From Amanita rubescens (Eukaryota > Basidiomycota > Agaricomycetes > Agaricales > Amanitaceae), in NCBI GenBank assembly GCA_015039365.1, contig WION01000096.1:62001-126000 (forward strand): a stretch of 64,000 bases of DNA, read 5' to 3'. Made by a program: the position numbers and the translations under genes. The stretch's first letter is position 1; every line of letters begins with the position of its first letter. The notes beneath the pieces were generated by a model that did no database searches, was not told the DNA's origin, and saw only the letters and a list, made by a program, of their open reading frames with translations. Below are positions 1,959-14,679 of this stretch, piece after piece.

Positions 1959-2063
1959 TGTTACAAACGTACGTCATGGCCTATCTTTTCCTTATCTTAT
2001 CATCTATGTCATCCCTCCTATGTCATTTGCATATGCGTTCCTTCCGGAACATTCATCGTTTAT

Positions 2064-2150
2064 CATATGCCAATTACTTTTATCACATGTATGCCGTTTT
2101 CACATGTTAACCGTTTCATTATCACATGTAACCGTTTTCATTATCACATG
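2064..2150 (+). promoter_or_regulatory. U3 array of CATATG/CACATG (E-box-like) motifs
   Basis: One CATATG (about 2064) and four CACATG motifs (2084, 2101, 2123, 2145) occur at spacings of roughly 17-22 bp, mostly within a repeated TTATCACATG context, about 40-130 bp upstream of the TATA box. The array persists in the solo LTR at 54528-55599 and in the minus-strand LTR. It is a candidate activator-binding array; the factor is unknown. Confidence 0.5.
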
Positions 2151-2187
2151 TATATATACTTACCATATTTGCGTATGTACTTTGTAC

Positions 2188-2231
2188 TATATAAATCACG
2201 CAAATATACGACTAGACCTCAGTCTAGTTTT
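2188..2231 (+). promoter_or_regulatory. LTR TATA box and predicted transcription start
   Basis: TATATAAAT starts at 2188. The sequence AGTCTAGTTTT (2221-2231) begins 31 bases after the T of TATAAA at 2190, a typical TATA-to-start distance. The start is placed there because these same bases are complementary to the primer-binding site downstream of the LTR, as expected if the RNA 5' end is the primer. The exact start is inferred. Confidence 0.6.
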
Positions 2232-2386
2232 AACAGTCAAAATCTGTCTCGTTATCGTCTAAGATCCCTTGAGGACTTATCCGATAACACTCTTATTCTT
2301 TGAACGTTCTTAAGTGCCGGAACTCCCTTGAGGAACCTACGGTACCTGATAAGCTTGACTTATTAGTGAACGAACAAACGTAACAA

Positions 2387-2398
2387 TAAAACTAGACT
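2387..2398 (+). other. Self-complementary primer-binding site
   Basis: TAAAACTAGACT lies one base after the 5' LTR and is the exact reverse complement of 2221-2232 in the LTR (12 of 12 bases). In Tf1 of fission yeast the primer for minus-strand DNA is the folded-back 5' end of the element's own RNA, and the site there is 11 bases long. Position, length and complementarity here fit that mechanism. I see no 3'-tRNA complement (TGG start) next to the LTR. Confidence 0.75.
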
Positions 2399-2422
2399 CC
2401 TCTCCGAGCACGATAGCTCTAA

Positions 2423-3211
2423 CGCTCTCACCTCCCATCATTCACTATTGCTCCACGACAATCTAAAAGTACCCCTCCAAATAACGCCAAACGAAACCCC
2501 CTTAACCATCTCTATTATCTCGACGAACATTCCATTCATTGGGATAAACGAGAAAACGGCTGGTGTTATACCGCTTCAGGAAAACCCGTACCAGGTCACC
2601 AGTTTTGGGTAAAACAAAAACTTGGAAGACCACCGAATCAATCCTTCCCATTCGAAGGAGGATTATATCTAAACGAACGCAAACTTGCCTTTCACGAAGG
2701 AAGTAAACGTTGGTACGCCACTGAATCGGAAACAGGAGAAGAACCGTACTTTATTAGAGACGAATACTTTGAAGGAGAACCCTTCATAGGAGAAAAAGAG
2801 GAGTTAACACGAACTGCGCTACAACGTTGGAAGAAAGCGAACGAACTAGAAACCTTAACCACTAGCCAAGAAACTCCCGTTGCATCACCACACATTCATT
2901 ACAGAGAAAGCGCTGAACCGTCAGGAGAGTCCGATAAAGAAGACAATAAAGATTCCTCCTCTGAACAAGAGAAAGAAGAAGAATCCCAAGATAAACTTGA
3001 ATACGCACCTGGAACCGAAGACGTTGTTATACCCACAGTAGAACAACGAGTTGAAGACGAAACCTCAGCTCAACTCATCGCTTCCTTATCCCTTGCAACC
3101 GAATCTAAACTCGAAGCTACACGACCCGCACCATCACCCCCTGTCGTATTTCCATACTTGTTTGCCCCACCAATCAACCCATTTCCTTCTAGAAAAGGAA
3201 AAGAACGAGAT
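2423..3211 (+). CDS. ATG-free open frame giving an N-terminal Gag extension
   Basis: This frame opens after the TAA at 2420 and stays open for 263 codons into gag at 3212. No ATG occurs in any frame from the predicted RNA start (2221) to 3211, where about 15 are expected by chance. The translation looks like protein: W/Y/G-rich motifs (GKPVPGHQFWV, GRPPNQSF, KRWYATESE, DEYFEGEP), then an acidic Ser/Glu/Lys tail. The same domain occurs upstream of gag in the diverged element at 12999-13421, with aligned motifs (GNPVKESEFWI, RPPNESYY, ERWIASETQ, NEYFNTP). Conservation argues for translation, which would need a non-AUG start or an unseen splice. No biochemical function is recognised. Confidence 0.6.
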
Positions 3212-4225
3212 ATGAGTGGATCAGGACCCCGGACCGAACCAAGGTCAGATCTACCGAAGATCAAACCTCCTAAACCGTTCGAAGGAGATCGAAAATATCT
3301 CAATCCGTTCATAGCGAAAGCCGAATTATTCATGAAAATGAATAAAATGACGGATGCTCAAGATAAGATACAGTTCATTATGTATCATATTGATGGCAAC
3401 GCTCAACAATGGCGCGACAACAAAATAACTGAATATGACGCCGAAACGACAAAATACGCCAACTATGACGCTTTTATTAAAGAACTGAAAGAAGATTGGG
3501 GACAAGTAGACGAAGCAGGACTAGCCATGCACAGATTACTCACATGGAGAAAACTCCCAAAGCAATCAATTAATCAATATATTGCGCGCGTCGATCGAGA
3601 CATCAATTTAGCCAAAATCACTGACGATACGACGAAATGTCATCTCCTAGTTTTAGGATTACCAAACACCTTACGAGAAAAACTACGACTAGGAGGTGCC
3701 CCGACAACCTATAAATCATTACGAACTCGTATCCTTGACATAGAAGTGGCGAACACCTTATTCTCCACTTTTGGCCAAGTAAAAGAGTTTGATGACAAAA
3801 TGGAAGTCGACGAGGCTGTACTAGAATTAAACCGACAAGCACGACAAATGCAGATTGCTGAAACCTCCATGGAATGGGTAAAAACCGCTGTATGCTATGG
3901 ATGCGGAAAAACAGGACATTTAATCTCGGACTGCCCTAATCCCAAAAAGAAACGACAAAACCTTGGGAATTCACGAGGAAGGGCAGCCCCTAGAGGACAA
4001 TTTCGAGGAAAACCACGCAGCCGAAATAATAACTGCAACAAAGGGAAAGGAAAAGGAAAAAGAATCAGAGCGCTGGATGCGGATAGCGATGAAGACGACA
4101 GTGGCTCGTCAAATGAAGAATCCAACAGTGAAAACGACGAAGACCAGAGAATCGCCGTCATACGAGAAATGGCGAAAACATTACCACGTAGCGCCCGCCG
4201 AAAATTGAACAAAAAGGGTTTTTAG
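3212..4225 (+). CDS. gag: Gag (capsid/nucleocapsid), 337 aa from first ATG
   Basis: The start is at 3212, the first ATG after the predicted RNA start; the same frame is open upstream (see 2423-3211). Residues about 30-200 form a retrotransposon Gag capsid-like region, with KPFEGDRKYLNPFIAK, then GNAQQWRDNK and FIKELKEDWG. A CCHC zinc knuckle CYGCGKTGHLISDC (CX2CX4HX4C) lies at residues 228-241. It is followed by a basic stretch rich in Arg and Lys and an acidic segment before the TAG at 4223-4225. Gag packages the RNA into particles. The pol frame overlaps the last codons in -1, with a slippery site at the stop. The gene is intact in this copy. Confidence 0.9.
   Translation: MSGSGPRTEPRSDLPKIKPPKPFEGDRKYLNPFIAKAELFMKMNKMTDAQDKIQFIMYHIDGNAQQWRDNKITEYDAETTKYANYDAFIKELKEDWGQVDEAGLAMHRLLTWRKLPKQSINQYIARVDRDINLAKITDDTTKCHLLVLGLPNTLREKLRLGGAPTTYKSLRTRILDIEVANTLFSTFGQVKEFDDKMEVDEAVLELNRQARQMQIAETSMEWVKTAVCYGCGKTGHLISDCPNPKKKRQNLGNSRGRAAPRGQFRGKPRSRNNNCNKGKGKGKRIRALDADSDEDDSGSSNEESNSENDEDQRIAVIREMAKTLPRSARRKLNKKGF
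4216..4225 (+). promoter_or_regulatory. Probable -1 frameshift site at the gag stop
   Basis: In the gag phase the codons are AAG GGT TTT TAG, so GGGTTTT is a correctly phased X XXY YYZ heptamer right before the stop. A slip of -1 reads TTT TTA GAA and enters the open pol frame. The related element at 13-20 kb ends gag with GAT TTT TAA and also has pol in -1, so the T5-TAR arrangement is shared. No downstream pseudoknot was modelled. Confidence 0.6.
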
Positions 4226-7200
4226 AACGAGACGACGATGAATCAGCGTCCGTCGTCTCTGAAGACGAACAACTATGTATAAATGGTGTAACAGTATCTT
4301 CTATGTCCAGAAATAAAATCACCATTCCCATTACCAAATGTTCGAATCTAAAAACCGCTGAAACCAAAGCCCTTATCGACTCAGGCGCACAAGGAAAATT
4401 CGTCGATAGCTCACTCGTCAATTGGAACGAAATCACTCGCTTAAAGAAACCCATCCCAGTGCGAAATGTGGACGGAACAAATAACAAGTCTGGAGATATA
4501 CGGTATAAAATCCAGATAAGCTATAACATCAAAAACAACCGGTTTAAAGACTGGTTTTATGTCACACGACTAGGCGATCAACGACTGATACTAGGATTAC
4601 CTTGGCTCCGAGAAATCAACCCCAGAATAGATTGGTCTGAAGGAACAGTTAGATTCCCCGACGAAAGGAAGATCGATCCGGAAGAAGAAACTACGTTTGA
4701 TTACGACGAAGAAACCGAAATGTACCTTCGGTATATCCAAAAAGAAGAAGAATTGAACGAAGATGAGGACGAAGATCTCGAGACTGATCACCTTTGGATC
4801 CAAGCGAAAACATCAGCGTCTCAAGCGCTCGCACATGAACACGAAGATAAATCTACGAAAGTAGAATTACCCCCTGAATATGACAAATGGAGAAAAGTTT
4901 TTGATAAACAAACATCAGAACGATTTCCCATTTCACGACAATGGGATCATGCGATAGATCTAAATGAAGGGTTTAAACCTAAAGTGGCGAAGAACTACCC
5001 GTTATCAATCCACGAGGAACAGCTAATGAATAAATGGGTCGACGAACAACTCAAAAAAGGCTACATTCGACCATCACAATCTCCGCAAGCGTCTCCTTTC
5101 TTTTACGTTGCAAAGAAAGAAAAAGGAGAGTTGAGACCTTGCCAAGATTACCGATACATCAATAGCTGGACGAAACGAAATGCCTATCCCCTTCCTTTAG
5201 TATCCGACTTATTATTAAAACTAAGAAAAGCAAAATACTTCTCCAAGTTAGACCTCCGATGGGGTTACAATAATGTGCGAATAAAGAAAGGCGACGAATG
5301 GAAAGCCGCGTTCACGACAAACCGTGGTCTCTTCGAGCCTACTGTAATGCTCTTTGGATTATGCAATTCACCGTCAACATTTCAAACGATGATGAACGAA
5401 TACTTCCGTGACATGATAGCCGAAGGATGGCTAGTCGTCTATATTGACGATATGTTGATATATGGAGCGAACGAGGAAGAAACGAGGGAGCGCACTAAGC
5501 AAGTCTTGCAATGGCTGAAAGAAAACGATCTGTTCCTGAAACTGGAAAAATGTAAATTCGTCGCCAAGGAAGTCGAATTCCTTGGGATGATCGTCAAAGA
5601 AGGAAAGATCATGATGGACCCCGTAAAACTCGCTGGAATCAGCAAATGGCCCGAACCGAAAACTGTTAAACAAATACGGTCATTTCTAGGGTTCGCGAAC
5701 TTTTACAGGAAATTTATAGGAAATTACGCCGAAATAGTAGCTCCGCTCACGGAACTTACGAAGAAAACAGTTCCCTTCCGATGGGATGCAGAATGTCAGA
5801 AAGCATTTGACACGTTAAAGGAGAAATTCCTAAAAGAACCGGTTCTAGTTATGCCAGATCCAACGAAACCATTTTTATTAGAGACCGATGCGTCAAACTG
5901 GGCGGTAGGAGCCGTCCTGAAACAACGGGGATCTGATGGAGAACTGCACCCATGCGGATTTATCAGTCATCGGTTAAGTGATACCGAACAAAGATATCAA
6001 GTATACGATCGCGAGTTATTAGCAATAAAGAAAGCGTTTGAAACCTGGAGACACCTTCTTAAAGGAAGCCCACATACAATTATGATCCACTGTGATCATA
6101 AGAATTTATCATATTACAAACATCCGCAAAAGATGACCGCCAGACAGTCACGCTGGTGGCAAGAAATCACGGAGTTTGATATCAAGTTAGAACATGTCCC
6201 TGGATCAAAACTTATTCAGGCAGATGCTTTATCGAGACGCCCTGACCATATTAACGAAGAAGAGGCAAAAGCAAAAGAAATCCCACAAACCATGATCTCT
6301 GATGACATGGTTATCGCCGCGATCAATGCATCTTGGGCAGACAAAATCACCGAATTATTGCCACAAGATAAATTTGCTAAAGTTGTAATCGACGGTCTCA
6401 AACACGGAAAACTACCCCTCCGATCAAAGTTTAATGACTGGAAGAACGATAACAACATCATTCGTTATCAAGGACGCGTTTATGTTCCTCAAAACGAAGA
6501 ATTACGAAACGAAATAATCAAGTCACATCACGACCCCGTAGTTATGGGTCACCCTGGACGATTGAAGACACTAGAGCTTATCCGCCGCGACTATTATTGG
6601 CCTGGAATGACAACGACCGTATCTAAATGGGTCGAAGGCTGTGCCTTATGTCAACAAATGAAGGTTAATACACATCCGATCACACCGGGTTTGATGCCTA
6701 TTAAATCCCACGCCACACGCCCATTCGAACAAGTTTCAATGGACTTCATCACAGATCTACCAATTATCGACGGTTTTGATTCTGTTTTGACCGTGGTCGA
6801 TCAAGGCTTAACAAAGGGCGTAATATTCATACCATGCAAAAAATCTTTTACCGCTATGGATACCGCCAACTCTTACATTAACGACGTTTACAAACGATAC
6901 GGGTTACCGACAACCCTCATCTCCGATAGAGGACCACAATTTACCTCTAAGGTTTTCGAAGAAATCTGCAAGATCTTCGGAATTAACCATAGAAAGTCGA
7001 CCGCCTTTCATCCGCAAACTGACGGAGAATCGGAACGACTCAATCAGGAGCTAGAAACCTACCTCCGGTTATACTGCGTTGATCATCCAAAACAGTGGAA
7101 AGATCACCTGCCATTAGCAGAATTCGCGCACAATCAACGGATACATCAATCTACCAAGATGACGCCGTTTGAAATCATGTTTGGAATAGAGCCTGTGGCT

Positions 7201-7812
7201 ATCCCCACAGCATTCCCGCGAATCAACGTACCCGCCGCTGAAGACCGCTTCAAGGTCTTAACACAAATACGAGACGAAGCTCTCGCCGCACACGAATTAG
7301 CTAGACAGCTAATGACTCAACGTGTCAAAGGGAAATCTCCCGCATTTAAAGAAGGAGACTTGGTATGGCTAGACTCACGAAACCTGAAAACTGGACAAAT
7401 AAGAAAATTCTCGCCTAGATGAGAAGGACCGTTCAAGATCGAAAAGATCTTAGGACCTATCACCGCTAAACTTGAACTTCCCCCAAGATGGAAGATTCAC
7501 CCTGTTTTTCATGTTTCACTCCTTACCCCTTATCATGAAAACGAAACACATGGTCCAAACTTTACTAGACCAACCCCAGACCTTATAGATAACAAAGAAG
7601 AATATGAAATCGAGACGATTGTCTCGCACCGAAGAAAAGGAAACCAATGGCAATTTTTAGTCAAATGGAAAGGTTATCCGACATCTGACAATTCATGGGA
7701 AACCGAGGAAAACTTAGAACACTCCGAGGAGACCTTAAACGAATATAAGGAACAACATGGAATTACAGCAATTGTCCCCACTACTCGTAAATCACGAAAA
7801 TGCCGTTCTTGA
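4216..7812 (+). pseudogene. pol: Pol polyprotein: PR-RT-RH-IN-chromodomain, one TGA
   Basis: Numbering from the ATG at 4303, the protease motif DSGAQG is at about residue 27, the RT catalytic YIDDM at about 380 and RNase H TDASNW at about 528. The integrase zinc motif (HH...CALC) is at about 741-785. The integrase core has MDFITD near 814, SDRGPQF near 876 and E in GESERLN near 911, giving a D-x35-E spacing. A TGA at 7420-7422 interrupts SPR-EGPFKI; the minus-strand copy has CGA (Arg) there. After it, the GPY/F region and a chromodomain (EYEIETIVSHRRKGNQWQF, VKWKGYPTSDNSWE) continue to 7812. Expression is expected by -1 slippage from gag. The C-terminus overlaps ORF3 by 56 bases. Confidence 0.92.
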
Positions 7813-9967
7813 AACCATGTCCTCCCCCATTAACAACCCGTCCGCCGCTGCTACTCCAGCCGCTTCAACAGTCGTTGAGGAAACCATCCCTCCGACCCCT
7901 TCTAGGGAAGAATCGCCAGCACCACTGCCAATTCCTCCTCCTACCTGTATGTTACATTATACATCCATCGGTACAGAATGGTTCCCTATAATTCCTTCTG
8001 ACGAGGAATTCGTACCCCGAAATGAAGATTCTTCATCTTCTGACTCATCCTATACCTTCCCATCATCGAACACTTCTACGATAGAAGAACTAATGCGAAA
8101 CGTCACAGATATGGGGAACGCTATTCTCCCTAACACTCCTGTGCCACCTGAAATGCAGGAAATGGTAGCTCAAGTATTCGCCACCAGAGACCAAATGGTC
8201 ATCACCTACGCACGCGGACCACGTCCTGACACTACCCCTGAGGATATCCGGATCATGTGAGAAGGACTACTCATGTTCAATGCCACCGCTTTTACCCTGG
8301 GAGTTCCTCCCATTGATGAAGAACTCGTCGACGACTACCTTGAAAGGGCAAGGACCATCGCCGCCACCAATGCTGCAACCACCGCCGCCATCTCTGCCGC
8401 CGCTAATGCTGTTGCCGCCGAAATCGATACCATCACCGTTAATGCTGCTATCGATGACGAGATCAATGAAAGACTCGTCAATCCCATCTCGATCCCTATT
8501 GTCTTCCCAGAAGACGCTCCATCGCCAAGGCCCCTTTACACCCCGTTGGATTTAATGAGGGAAACCCACGCTCGATCCATGAGCCCAATACCTAGACTCC
8601 CTGCCGAAGGACCTATTCCTAGGTTCTATTTCCAGCACGCCTCTGTCAATGACGACAACTTTAACGTGCCCGCACCCGACATTCCCGCTATAAACGTCAT
8701 CTTAACACATTACGCCATCCCCTCCTTCATCGATCCAATAATTCGACGAGCCTTTTACCGAATCTGGACGCTCTTCACGTCCTGGACCTTTGCCAACAAC
8801 TATCTATTCATCTTAAATAGATATGTTCATCCTGATCTGATGGCCCTCGTTAACGTCATCATTAATCTCACCCGTCGGTTCCGAGAACCGCAACGTAACC
8901 GCTGGATCACTTTGATGATCTGGAATAATATTCATTGGTTTTGCGACCTACGAGGAGACGTATACCTCGAAGAAGCAACCCGTCTTACCACCGCCAGACA
9001 TCGTCACCATTTCATCCAACCAACACGACAACCTGCTTTAGACACTGGCATGGCCTGGATGCACGGACGCCCTGTATTTCCCCGCACTCCCGTCAATGCC
9101 ACGATCGAACGAATTCGAACCCTTAGTGACCGACTCAACCCGATGATAACCCCTGATGGTTGGGACATAACTATATTACGACAACTACAAACGACGATTA
9201 ACAATCTCGTGTGGAGGCACGATCGTAACCCTAATAGACCCAATGCCAGTAACGAATACCAAGACGCCGCCGTCATCGCACTCCAAACAGGACATACAAT
9301 TGAAGGACGCGATGTCCCTATCCTTGAAAACCCGACACGTCGCACCATCTTTCACCTGCACGGACCTGATCCCTCAGCCGAACGATTGGTATCATTCGAA
9401 CCAAATAACCTAGCCTTCGAGGGAGAAGACATCCCTGGAACTCAAGGTTGTTACATGTGCGGAGCCCCGCATCATACTACCGAACACCATCGACGACGAG
9501 AAATACGCCGAGGACCGGTACATGAGGAAACCCCGCCTCCCACTTATCCAGACGCTATAACACAATCATCGCTGCCCACGCCGTTTGAACAAATCCCTGA
9601 AAGACGAATTTCTACCGCTTCGCCCGCTACTACTATCGATTCCGCCCAACTCGAACAAGGCGAACCTTCCCCGCTTATCGAAAGAAGACGACGAGGGACA
9701 AATACTCGTCCTCCAGGCAACCGCTTCACTACTACTGCTACTGGACCTCCACCCTCACGACGAAACCTTGGAAACCGTCGAGGCCAATCCACACGAGGAC
9801 AGTCGACACGACATGTCGCCACTATGACCGCCTCAAACACACGAGAAGAGCGACCGACTCTTCAAGAACGACTTACTGACAACCGCCGCCGCCGTCGTCA
9901 TCCCTGGCAAGGAAATGAAGACTCTTATACCTACGACAGCGATGCTGAACACAATCGTGACATGTAG
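7757..9967 (+). pseudogene. ORF3: third protein after pol, 736 codons, one TGA
   Basis: The ATG at 7757 lies inside the end of pol, in another frame. The TGA at 8258-8260 is CGA in the minus-strand copy, so the ancestral product was about 736 aa. It has a Pro/Ser-rich N-terminus with acidic stretches, an Ala-rich helix-like run near residues 200-225, and a hydrophobic aromatic segment at about 332-352 (FYRIWTLFTSWTFANNYLFI). A zinc-knuckle-like CX2CX4HX4H motif follows at 565-578 (CYMCGAPHHTTEHH), then an Arg-rich C-terminus. The knuckle differs from Gag's only in ending with His. It could be a second nucleic-acid-binding structural protein. I see no signal peptide, and one hydrophobic stretch is weak evidence for an envelope. 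Confidence 0.75.
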
Positions 9968-9980
9968 TCACAGGTAAATT

Positions 9981-9999
9981 CAATATTCGGCGAATATTG
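9981..9999. repeat. Small palindrome before the 3' polypurine tract
   Basis: CAATATTCG, a one-base spacer and CGAATATTG form 9-bp perfect arms between the ORF3 stop and the polypurine tract. The minus-strand copy retains most of it (near 60769-60787). It may be an RNA hairpin at the 3' end of the internal region. Confidence 0.4.
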
Positions 10000-10011
10000 G
10001 ACTTCGTATGT

Positions 10012-10024
10012 AGGAGAAGGGCTA
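10012..10024 (+). other. Polypurine tract
   Basis: AGGAGAAGGGCTA lies directly upstream of the 3' LTR, where the plus-strand primer is made in LTR retrotransposons. The minus-strand copy has the same purine run next to its LTR. Confidence 0.7.
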
Positions 10025-10451
10025 TGTTACAAACGTACGTCATGGCCTATCTTTTCCTTATCTTATCATCTATGTCATCCCTCCTATGTCATTTGCATAT
10101 GCGTTCCTTCCGGAACATTCATCGTTTATCATATGCCAATTACTTTTATCACATGTATGCCGTTTTCACATGTTAACCGTTTCATTATCACATGTAACCG
10201 TTTTCATTATCACATGTATATATACTTACCATATTTGCGTATGTACTTTGTACTATATAAATCACGCAAATATACGACTAGACCTCAGTCTAGTTTTAAC
10301 AGTCAAAATCTGTCTCGTTATCGTCTAAGATCCCTTGAGGACTTATCCGATAACACTCTTATTCTTTGAACGTTCTTAAGTGCCGGAACTCCCTTGAGGA
10401 ACCTACGGTACCTGATAAGCTTGACTTATTAGTGAACGAACAAACGTAACA
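10025..10451 (+). repeat. 3' LTR (427 bp)
   Basis: Same length as 1959-2385 and no difference seen by eye. It is followed at 10452-10456 by TGGAC, the second target duplication. Confidence 0.95.
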
Positions 10452-12655: not shown

Positions 12656-12774
12656 CAGGGGTATGAAGGGTTAATCCTTATAGGGAGGGGTTGGGAGGGG
12701 TAGACAGGCTCCAACCCTTACCCCTACCCTCCACCAAACCCTCCATGAAGGGTGAGGGGTTGCCCATACCCCTG
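12656..12774. repeat. Short inverted-terminus G/C-run element (119 bp)
   Basis: Begins CAGGGGTATG and ends CATACCCCTG, a perfect 10-bp terminal inverted repeat around G- and C-runs. No flanking duplication is visible. The bases from 12775 to about 12998 hold nothing recognisable. Confidence 0.55.
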
Positions 12775-12998: not shown

Positions 12999-13421
12999 AA
13001 AGGGAACTATGTTCTTGACGGATACTTCGTCAGACTAAACGGTGCAAAACGAATCTGGGAAGATACAGGTGGAAATCCAGTTAAAGAATCAGAATTCTGG
13101 ATACCCCAAAAAGAAACTAGACCTCCGAACGAATCATACTACTACTTTGCAGATCTATATCTTGAACAACTACATATCAGATTCGATCACCTCACAGAAC
13201 GTTGGATAGCATCCGAAACACAAGAATTTGTCCCTAACGAATACTTCAACACCCCTGTCTGGATACAAGGGACTGTTGACGCTCTACCAGAAAACTTAAG
13301 ACCGAGACATCTCCTCTCCACACCGACAACTACAAAAGGCAAAAAGAAAGCAAGCTTTAGCCTAAACAATAGTGACCGAGAAAGAGGATACAACAGATCA
13401 AAAACCCGATCTATCCCTTGA
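12999..13421 (+). pseudogene. Conserved Gag N-terminal extension domain (element 2)
   Basis: The frame opens after a TGA at 12996 and reads NYVLDGYFVRLNGAKRIWED, then GGNPVKESEFWIPQK, RPPNESYYYFADLYLE and ERWIASETQEFVPNEYFNTP. It aligns along its length with the ATG-free extension at 2423-3211. No ATG occurs in any frame from 13012 to 13620. The domain is one frame away from gag here (gag frame opens at 13366), probably a decay indel. A non-frame ATG at 13009 gives only nine codons. Confidence 0.65.
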
Positions 13422-14679
13422 TTTTCTCAGTGACCTTTCAGTTGGAACAACACCAACACCTGCCCAACAACCGACCAATCCCAAACCAGGTCCTTCGAAC
13501 CCTACAGAACAAAAGGACGAAGAAGACCCGTTTAACCCTGACAGAATTGAAGTAGACGAACCTAAACCCAACCCAACACCACCACACCGAGACCCATCAC
13601 CCTCACCATCACCAACAAGAATGTCTGGAGGAACCACAGACCCCACACCCAACCCACAAATCCCTAGTCTCATCGGAGATCTCCCTGAATTTAAGGGAAA
13701 GCGAAAGGATGCCAACACGTTCATAGAAGACATTGAAATCTTCTTTGACATGAACCCTGAGCGGATGAATACCGACTGCTTAAAGATCCTCGCTGCCCTG
13801 AATAAGATCTCAGATGGAGCTAGACAATGGAAAAAGAATAAGTTAGCGGATCTACGAAAATCTCGTGTCACCACCGAAGGAGGTGTTACGAGACCTGCCT
13901 TATTCAATGATTGGGATGCATTTAAACTGTCATTCTTGACAGATTGGGGAGAAGTTGATCCTAGTGGAAACACATACACAAAAATTCTCAATCTACAGAA
14001 CAGATTGTCCATGAAAGGAAAGAAACAGATGACCTTACCCAATTACGTTAATCAGTTCAAGGAACAAATTACGAAAGCCAGAATCAAAGGAGAAGCAGCA
14101 TTCCATATGTTCGGAAAAGGACTTACAGCACCTGAGTTCGAAAAAGCAATGCTCATGAATCCAAAAACACTACAGGATTGGTACGACATTGCTATCAAAC
14201 TCGACAACATCCGAACCCGTTCATATGCCTATTCACCTCGATCTGGAAACGGTCATTCATCATCCTCTCACAACAACGAATCATGGGCAATGCAGATTGA
14301 TCACAAATATCTTGAAAGGGATGAAGACCCAGAATTAGAACTTGTGATCAGATCTATGTCCAAAGAAGAAAGAGAACACTACATCAGAGACGGTTTATGT
14401 TTCATCTGCGGAATCAAAGGACACATGTCAGGGCAATGCCCAAAGAAGAAAAGAAACAAAGGGAAAGGTTGATTTAAAGGAGGAAAGAAAAGAGGATTCG
14501 CACCCAAACGTCACATTCGAGCCACATCAGAAGATGGTGACGGAAACTGGGAAGAAGAAGAAGTCCGAGAGTCTAAACCAAATTACACCAAGAACATCCG
14601 AGCGCTGATGAAAGGGATGTCACCCGACAAAAAGAACGATCTATTACTATCTCTTGCCAATGATAACGAGGATTTTTAA
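13366..14679 (+). pseudogene. gag: Gag of element 2 (first ATG 13621; internal TGA)
   Basis: The first ATG in the frame, 13621, starts MSGGTTDP, matching the MSGSGPRT start of the other element. A Pro/Asp-rich region lies upstream in the same frame. The capsid-like part follows (LPEFKGKRKDANTFIEDIEI, ISDGARQWKKNK, FKLSFLTDWGEVDP), then a CCHC knuckle CFICGIKGHMSGQC and basic residues. A TGA at 14470-14472 interrupts GKG-FKGGKKRG, possibly from CGA. The frame continues to TAA at 14677-14679 with the acidic tail WEEEEVRES and the ending NDNEDF. The layout matches the other Gag, so the two are homologous. Confidence 0.8.

Follow-up and report, generated by a model that had tools for sequence, protein, structure and literature searches.

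Introduction

Murine gammaretroviruses make a long form of Gag, glyco-Gag, in which an in-frame extension without an AUG lies upstream of Gag. The extension starts at CUG and is membrane-inserted and glycosylated. A comparable arrangement is described here for a long terminal repeat (LTR) retrotransposon, element 1, of the fungus Amanita rubescens. It lies in a stretch of 64,000 nucleotides (nt) of contig WION01000096.1 (positions 62,001 to 126,000, forward strand; hereafter the window, in whose numbering all coordinates are given). Between the predicted RNA start and Gag, element 1 contains no ATG, and this leader encodes a conserved domain fused in frame to Gag. An earlier note on the window proposed that a long Gag starts at a non-AUG codon and a short Gag at the AUG.

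In ribosome profiling of murine leukemia virus, ribosome density in the glyco-Gag extension is 6.7% of gag density, coverage at the CUG is low and further start sites are suggested (PMC5778647). The Amanita extension is like glyco-Gag in its translation strategy. It differs in its candidate start codons, which are AUU or ACG, in having no hydrophobic segment, in consisting of two similar halves and an acidic linker, and in its fungal host.

Near-cognate codons of the same kind are described for the N-terminal extension of Neurospora crassa cpc-1. The conserved near-cognate codons there include AUU and ACG, and at least four such codons initiated in vitro (PMC5487733). Both cases combine a long fungal mRNA leader with a conserved in-frame extension. 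However, cpc-1 is a host gene with AUG-initiated upstream open reading frames, whereas the Amanita case is a retroelement with a leader that lacks AUG.

The retrotransposons Tf1 and Tj1 are self-primed, with a primer site complementary to the 5' end of the mRNA (PMC4600332). The Amanita elements share this layout and the Ty3/gypsy-type Gag and Pol domains. Unlike Tf1 and Tj1, they add a leader domain to Gag, and their Gag and Pol are in different frames, with GGGTTTT at the gag stop. A literature search at the level of titles and opening lines of abstracts, with few subscription papers covered, found no non-AUG Gag isoform named for a fungal or Ty3/gypsy element.

Results

Layout of the leader

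The RNA start of element 1 is placed at 2221 because 2387-2398 complements 2221-2232, in a primer site layout like that of Tf1 and Tj1. This position, predicted in the earlier note, is also supported by a TATA box 31 nt upstream. The 12-nt exact complementarity between primer site and predicted RNA end is present in all three element families described below. The features of this part of element 1 are as follows.

1959-10451: element 1 (family A), LTR retrotransposon, Ty3/gypsy, self-priming
1959..2385, + strand: 5' LTR of element 1 (TGTTAC...GTAACA), 427 nt identical to the 3' LTR at 10025-10451 in an alignment
2190..2195, + strand: TATA box TATAAA
2221..2232, + strand: predicted RNA 5' end (start of R) and self-primer AGTCTAGTTTTA, exact reverse complement of 2387-2398
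2221..3211, + strand: ATG-free leader, 991 nt with no ATG in any frame
2387..2398, + strand: primer binding site TAAAACTAGACT of the Tf1 self-priming type; families B and C share the arrangement but not the sequence
2423..3211, + strand: in-frame Gag extension, 263 codons without Met
2447..2449, + strand: candidate non-AUG start codon AUU, with A at -3 and G at +4
2471..2626, + strand: leader domain, first half (PPN...YYL...W...FW)
2627..2821, + strand: leader domain, second half, an internal repeat that resembles the first (profile comparison with controls)
2822..3211, + strand: acidic, proline-rich linker from domain to Gag, under weaker constraint
3212..4225, + strand: short Gag from the AUG (MSGSG...), with Ty3 capsid-like domain and CCHC zinc knuckle
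4216..4225, + strand: GGGTTTT heptamer up to the gag stop TAG, after which pol uses the -1 frame; 27 of the 30 family A copies carry GGGTTTTTAG

Families and copies compared

The leader domain is found in three element families of the genome: A (element 1), B (element 2 of the window) and C. Over aligned codons, leader identity between family representatives is 46% for B and C, 35% for A and C, and 27% for A and B. A protein search of the species' own genome (75.7 Mb) with the element 1 leader finds at least 146 places. Among these, 49 rows have exactly 600 open codons, as does element 1; 13 are distant (about 30% identity) and represent family C, and the remainder consists of further family A copies, broken ones and fragments. 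With the element 2 leader as query, the matches listed include 150 places, which divide into 110 from family B and 40 from family C. One family C leader of the genome is 94% like an Amanita rubescens protein.

The family A set consists of 30 copies, the best-scoring of the at least 146 rows. For family B, 16 loci were examined and the start motif is present in 15; for family C, it is present in 20 of 22. For the ATG count in family C, loci with no recognisable R (L032, L034, L040, L075), with an in-frame stop (L031, L033) or broken before Gag (L036, L037) were set aside, which leaves 12. In the family C copy L041 (1981-2471, turned strand), an additional stretch of about 400 nt, which includes several ATGs, lies between the primer site and the leader frame.

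Avoidance of ATG in the leader

The ATGs that flank the leader of element 1 are at 2175 and 3212, with none between them, and one frame is open from 2423 through Gag to 4225. Both features had been reported before and are borne out here. The earlier figure of about 15 expected ATGs is too high, as dinucleotide shuffles of 2221-3211 have a mean of 7.3. The depletion itself stands: none of 500 shuffles is free of ATG. CAT, which is ATG on the other strand, occurs 15 times in the same interval. The leaders from R to Gag of eight representatives (one of family A, three of B and four of C; 952-1057 nt) contain no ATG in 8 of 8 cases. Their shuffle means are 6.8-9.7 ATGs, and zero is reached in 0 of 500 shuffles for every one.

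This pattern remains when the protein is held fixed. Synonymous codon permutation predicts 4.2-7.9 out-of-frame ATGs, and 10 of 11 leaders have none. The chance of zero ATG is at most 0.001 with permuted codons and at most 0.007 with codons drawn by Gag usage. In-frame Met is absent from all 11 leaders, as against 9-13 in the first 329-333 residues of their Gags.

Common ATGs in other copies would, according to the earlier note, speak against its proposal. They are rare: the leader is ATG-free in 24/30 copies of family A, 10/15 of family B and 8/12 intact-frame copies of family C. In the 30 family A copies, ATG has no fixed site and eight private sites (seven singletons and one in two identical copies), and the number of fixed sites for six control words is 7-13 in the same copies. 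The U3 region is rich in ATG, with 11 in 262 nt in family A, 7 in 258 nt in each of two family B copies and 9 in 293 nt in each of two family C copies. In five copies from the three families, the ATG-free zone begins 22-46 nt above the predicted RNA start. The avoidance therefore belongs to the transcript. There is selection against AUG in the leader in all three families.

Selection on the encoded protein

Ratios like dN/dS (nonsynonymous to synonymous change) were corrected for the mutation spectrum and exclude codons with more than one change. In family A, 15 disjoint nearest pairs give 0.39 for the leader, 0.32 for the domain and 0.49 for the linker. Far pairs give 0.26 for the domain and 0.63 for the linker, and Gag has 0.11-0.18. 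The other two frames of the leader, which were tested in family A only, have ratios of 1.74 and 1.39. In family B (15 copies), the leader has 0.31 and 0.24 and the domain 0.14. In family C (13 copies), the values are 0.25 and 0.26 for the leader and 0.13 and 0.15 for the domain. The constraint on the B and C domains is about as strict as that on Gag of family A. Between families, the ratio is 0.18 for B and C, 0.22 for A and C, and 0.44 for A and B.

None of 5000 simulations reaches the observed synonymous count for the leader or the domain in any of the three families; for the family A linker, 8/5000 (nearest pairs) and 18/5000 (far pairs) do so. Substitutions at codon positions 1, 2 and 3 number 33, 27 and 70 in nearest pairs of A, 31, 32 and 135 in far pairs of B, and 39, 36 and 114 in far pairs of C. 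Within 2423-3211, there are no indels among the 30 family A copies, and there are many in U3. A leader ratio near 1, the sign that the earlier note named against translation, is not what is found in these families, where it is well below 1. Because the leader ratios are 0.24-0.39 and the domain ratios 0.13-0.32, and because the other frames in family A exceed 1, the leader appears to be translated as protein. On these codon comparisons, a conserved in-frame leader protein is under purifying selection in three families. Protein-level selection above the AUG, with no in-frame AUG upstream, is also what is generally expected of a non-AUG N-terminal extension.

The same data make it highly improbable that the leader is conserved as RNA, for packaging, priming or as an internal ribosome entry site, with the open frame incidental. 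The fold of the whole family A leader is more stable than those of 20/20 shuffles (z -4.2), and in an alignment of B and C, 2 of 19 predicted pairs past the primer site are changed on both sides. However, substitutions gather at the third codon positions of the leader frame, amino acids are kept at 27-46% identity between families, and six short windows around the start are no stabler than shuffles. No role of an RNA fold is claimed, because the short windows are not stabler than shuffles and the covarying pairs rest on two lineages.

By eye, families B and C (L051:737-757, L038:2529-2549) keep CCCGTAGGTTA between the arms GCCAG/CTGGC and ACCGG/CCGGT at the start of the leader frame. RNAalifold favoured another pairing at this site, and the two pairs in its prediction that are changed on both sides are located upstream of here.

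The leader domain and its relatives

The domain has the signature PPN...YYL...W...(E/Q)FW...Q...PPN...YL...F...RW...F...F. Its two halves match in a profile comparison with 87.6% probability (E 3.5e-6, 31 columns), and two control comparisons with a piece of Gag give 0.1%. The net charge of the whole leader is -10 to -18, with the acidic linker after the domain. Neither Pfam nor the solved structures contain a significant match to the domain. NCBIfam gives two chance-level matches to the family A leader, with E values of 0.22 and 0.46, and no match to the leaders of B or C.

The likeness to glyco-Gag drawn in the earlier note holds for the translation strategy and not for the extension itself. 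In one copy each of A, B and C, no transmembrane or hydrophobic segment is found, and the maximum 19-residue hydropathy is 0.63, 0.28 and -0.22. The same copies have 1, 2 and 0 NXS/T sites in the extension. In-frame CTG is absent from the element 1 leader and from the first 40 codons of the family B and C frames listed.

A search of 5.8 billion proteins, confined to certain lengths and shared words, gives 16 distinct proteins, some of which match the linker and Gag only. The protein search that had been suggested to measure the spread of the domain thus adds to the three or more families of the genome the Gag-fused relatives P0001, P0004 (source ena) and P0005 (source src). P0003, P0010, P0011 and P0012 have different, unrelated N-terminal beginnings. 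P0001 is a fungal-type fusion of leader and Gag that is filed under a Methylomirabilota bin, and is probably fungal contamination of this bacterial bin.

Some relatives would fit a long Gag that starts at an ordinary hidden AUG, supplied by an alternative upstream transcription start or by an exon spliced to an acceptor close to where the frame begins. In the Amanita rubescens gene model P0002, an upstream stretch, MSASTEEALE, is followed by the family C leader frame, with the junction directly behind CCCGTAG, and P0005, P0007 and P0008 start with an upstream M. However, a six-frame search for the words MSAST and STEEA finds no match in 54 loci, so the MSASTEEALE stretch is probably outside the element. 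In the eight representatives, an upstream AUG, which the earlier note had listed as contrary evidence, is likewise missing from the stretch that runs from the predicted RNA start to Gag. In three families, the ATG-free zone sets in at the predicted RNA start, and stops in the leader frame part U3 from the leader in the window. A hidden AUG is therefore unlikely. Splicing behind CCCGTAG such that the junction itself forms an AUG was examined by hand and rejected, as the resulting frame is not the leader frame.

By eye, the M of P0005, P0007 and P0008 stands opposite GTG 2366-2368 of family A, near the end of U5, which is in the leader frame but is then followed by stops. If this M is an ATG, these relatives use an AUG in U5 that families A to C would lack. 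The DNA of P0005 was sought in viral and prokaryote contigs and not found there.

Candidate start codons and two forms of Gag

In each family's frame, one near-cognate codon with A at -3 lies ahead of the first PPN. It is A-ATT-G in 30/30 copies of family A, A-ACG-G in 15/15 of family B, and ATT with A at -3 in 20/20 of family C. The A at -3 is present in all 65 copies checked. In the codon directly upstream, the second base varies in family C and in older family A copies, and the -3 position stays A. The family C copies L038 and L039 have an additional AGG with C at -3.

The continuous and conserved frame would also be expected if there were a single Gag only, the long form, with every ribosome starting at a non-AUG codon and Met 3212 merely the first methionine. 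Three observations make this quite improbable. ATGs are avoided in the two other frames as well, which is relevant only if ribosomes scan to 3212. All 30 family A copies have the same context, CGAGATATGA, around the Gag AUG. The residue after the Met is S in families A and B, T in intact family C copies and A in five relatives (P0001, P0004, P0005, P0009 and P0014), with P0015 as an exception.

Since out-of-frame ATGs are avoided inside the open frame, ribosomes would also scan through to 3212. Such scanning, together with the conserved M-S, M-T or M-A starts of Gag, points to two Gags. The proposal of the earlier note, a long non-AUG Gag and a short AUG Gag, gains support from selection on the leader and from ATG avoidance. 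Judged on sequence, the elements probably use a near-cognate codon for a minor long Gag, and leaky scanning to the AUG for a short Gag.

Several observations weigh against this reading. The copies were picked from the best-scoring matches, and some sets were taken from the plus strand with mostly long open reading frames, so intact copies are favoured. One or more leader ATGs are present in 6/30 copies of family A, 5/15 of family B and 4/12 of family C. The older family A copy L047 has two, and one ATG is common to three family B copies, in weak context and with a frame of six codons. By chance, 33-43% of such stretches per family would contain at least one near-cognate codon that has A at -3, so the candidate codon is a pointer and not a proof. 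The frames of P0005, P0007 and P0008 are open through the primer site up to their first-residue M, and P0015 has M-M at the expected Gag start.

Element 2 and other features of the window

Element 2 is the family B copy of the window.

12999..13418, + strand: leader domain of element 2, a decayed copy out of frame with its own Gag
13621..13623, + strand: Gag AUG (MSGG) of element 2

The element 1 domain aligns with 12999-13418, and 13012-13620 is ATG-free, both in line with the earlier note. Its statement that the first ATG is that of the MSG of Gag holds for element 1 and for the ATG-free family B copies. It does not hold for element 2 itself, whose domain contains an ATG at 13009 and is in a different frame from its Gag. 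Four family B copies compared lack this ATG. Since 573-581 codons are open straight through in 69 of the 110 family B rows, the frame shift belongs to the decayed copy. ATGs at 12663, 12745 and 12909 may also fall in the leader of element 2, and a pattern search did not find its primer site.

In a Pfam search, Gag of element 1 matches PF19259 and PF00098. Its Pol contains, in order, PF00078, PF17917/PF17919, PF17921 and PF00665 (reverse transcriptase, RNase H and integrase). This order is a defining feature of Ty3/gypsy elements. By its sequence features, 1959-10451 is a recent self-priming Ty3/gypsy retrotransposon. The GGGTTTT heptamer at the gag stop is probably a -1 frameshift site for Gag-Pol. 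Between pol and the 3' LTR there are two more open reading frames, 7757-8260 (167 codons) and 8273-9967 (564 codons). The second contains a CxxC...HH stretch and has only a weak Pfam match (PF20151, E 0.4). To the left of element 1, a frame of 455 codons (936-2303) extends into the 5' LTR; the element was probably inserted here into host sequence or that of an older element.

Discussion

In the proposed mechanism, the RNA of element 1 would start at about 2221, and scanning ribosomes would meet no AUG until 3212, about 1 kb downstream. Most ribosomes would pass the leader and initiate the short Gag at this AUG. A minority would initiate at the well-placed near-cognate codon, which would be AUU 2447 in family A, AUU in family C and ACG in family B. 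The long Gag would then consist of the N-terminal two-repeat domain, the acidic linker and Gag. It may join the short Gag in the particle as a minor subunit, through the common capsid, and may present the domain for contact with the host or with RNA. We infer the RNA 5' end, the exact start codon and the ratio of the two Gag forms.

The evidence leans, somewhat less firmly than for the two forms as such, toward a broader statement. At least three self-priming fungal Ty3/gypsy families, with relatives in other public protein sets, would encode a two-repeat domain, not described before, that occurs solely as the N-terminal part of a minor, non-AUG-initiated Gag. This dual-Gag strategy would be independent of gammaretroviral glyco-Gag and hidden from annotation for want of an AUG.

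Gene callers that depend on AUG would be expected to miss the leader domain. More cases may be sought by a simple signature, an ATG-free region with its beginning at the RNA start and, inside it, a frame subject to purifying selection. The finding also raises the question of which role a Gag that carries an additional domain has in a retrotransposon particle. If the proposed reading is true, LTR retrotransposons outside vertebrates also make two forms of Gag by choice of start codon.
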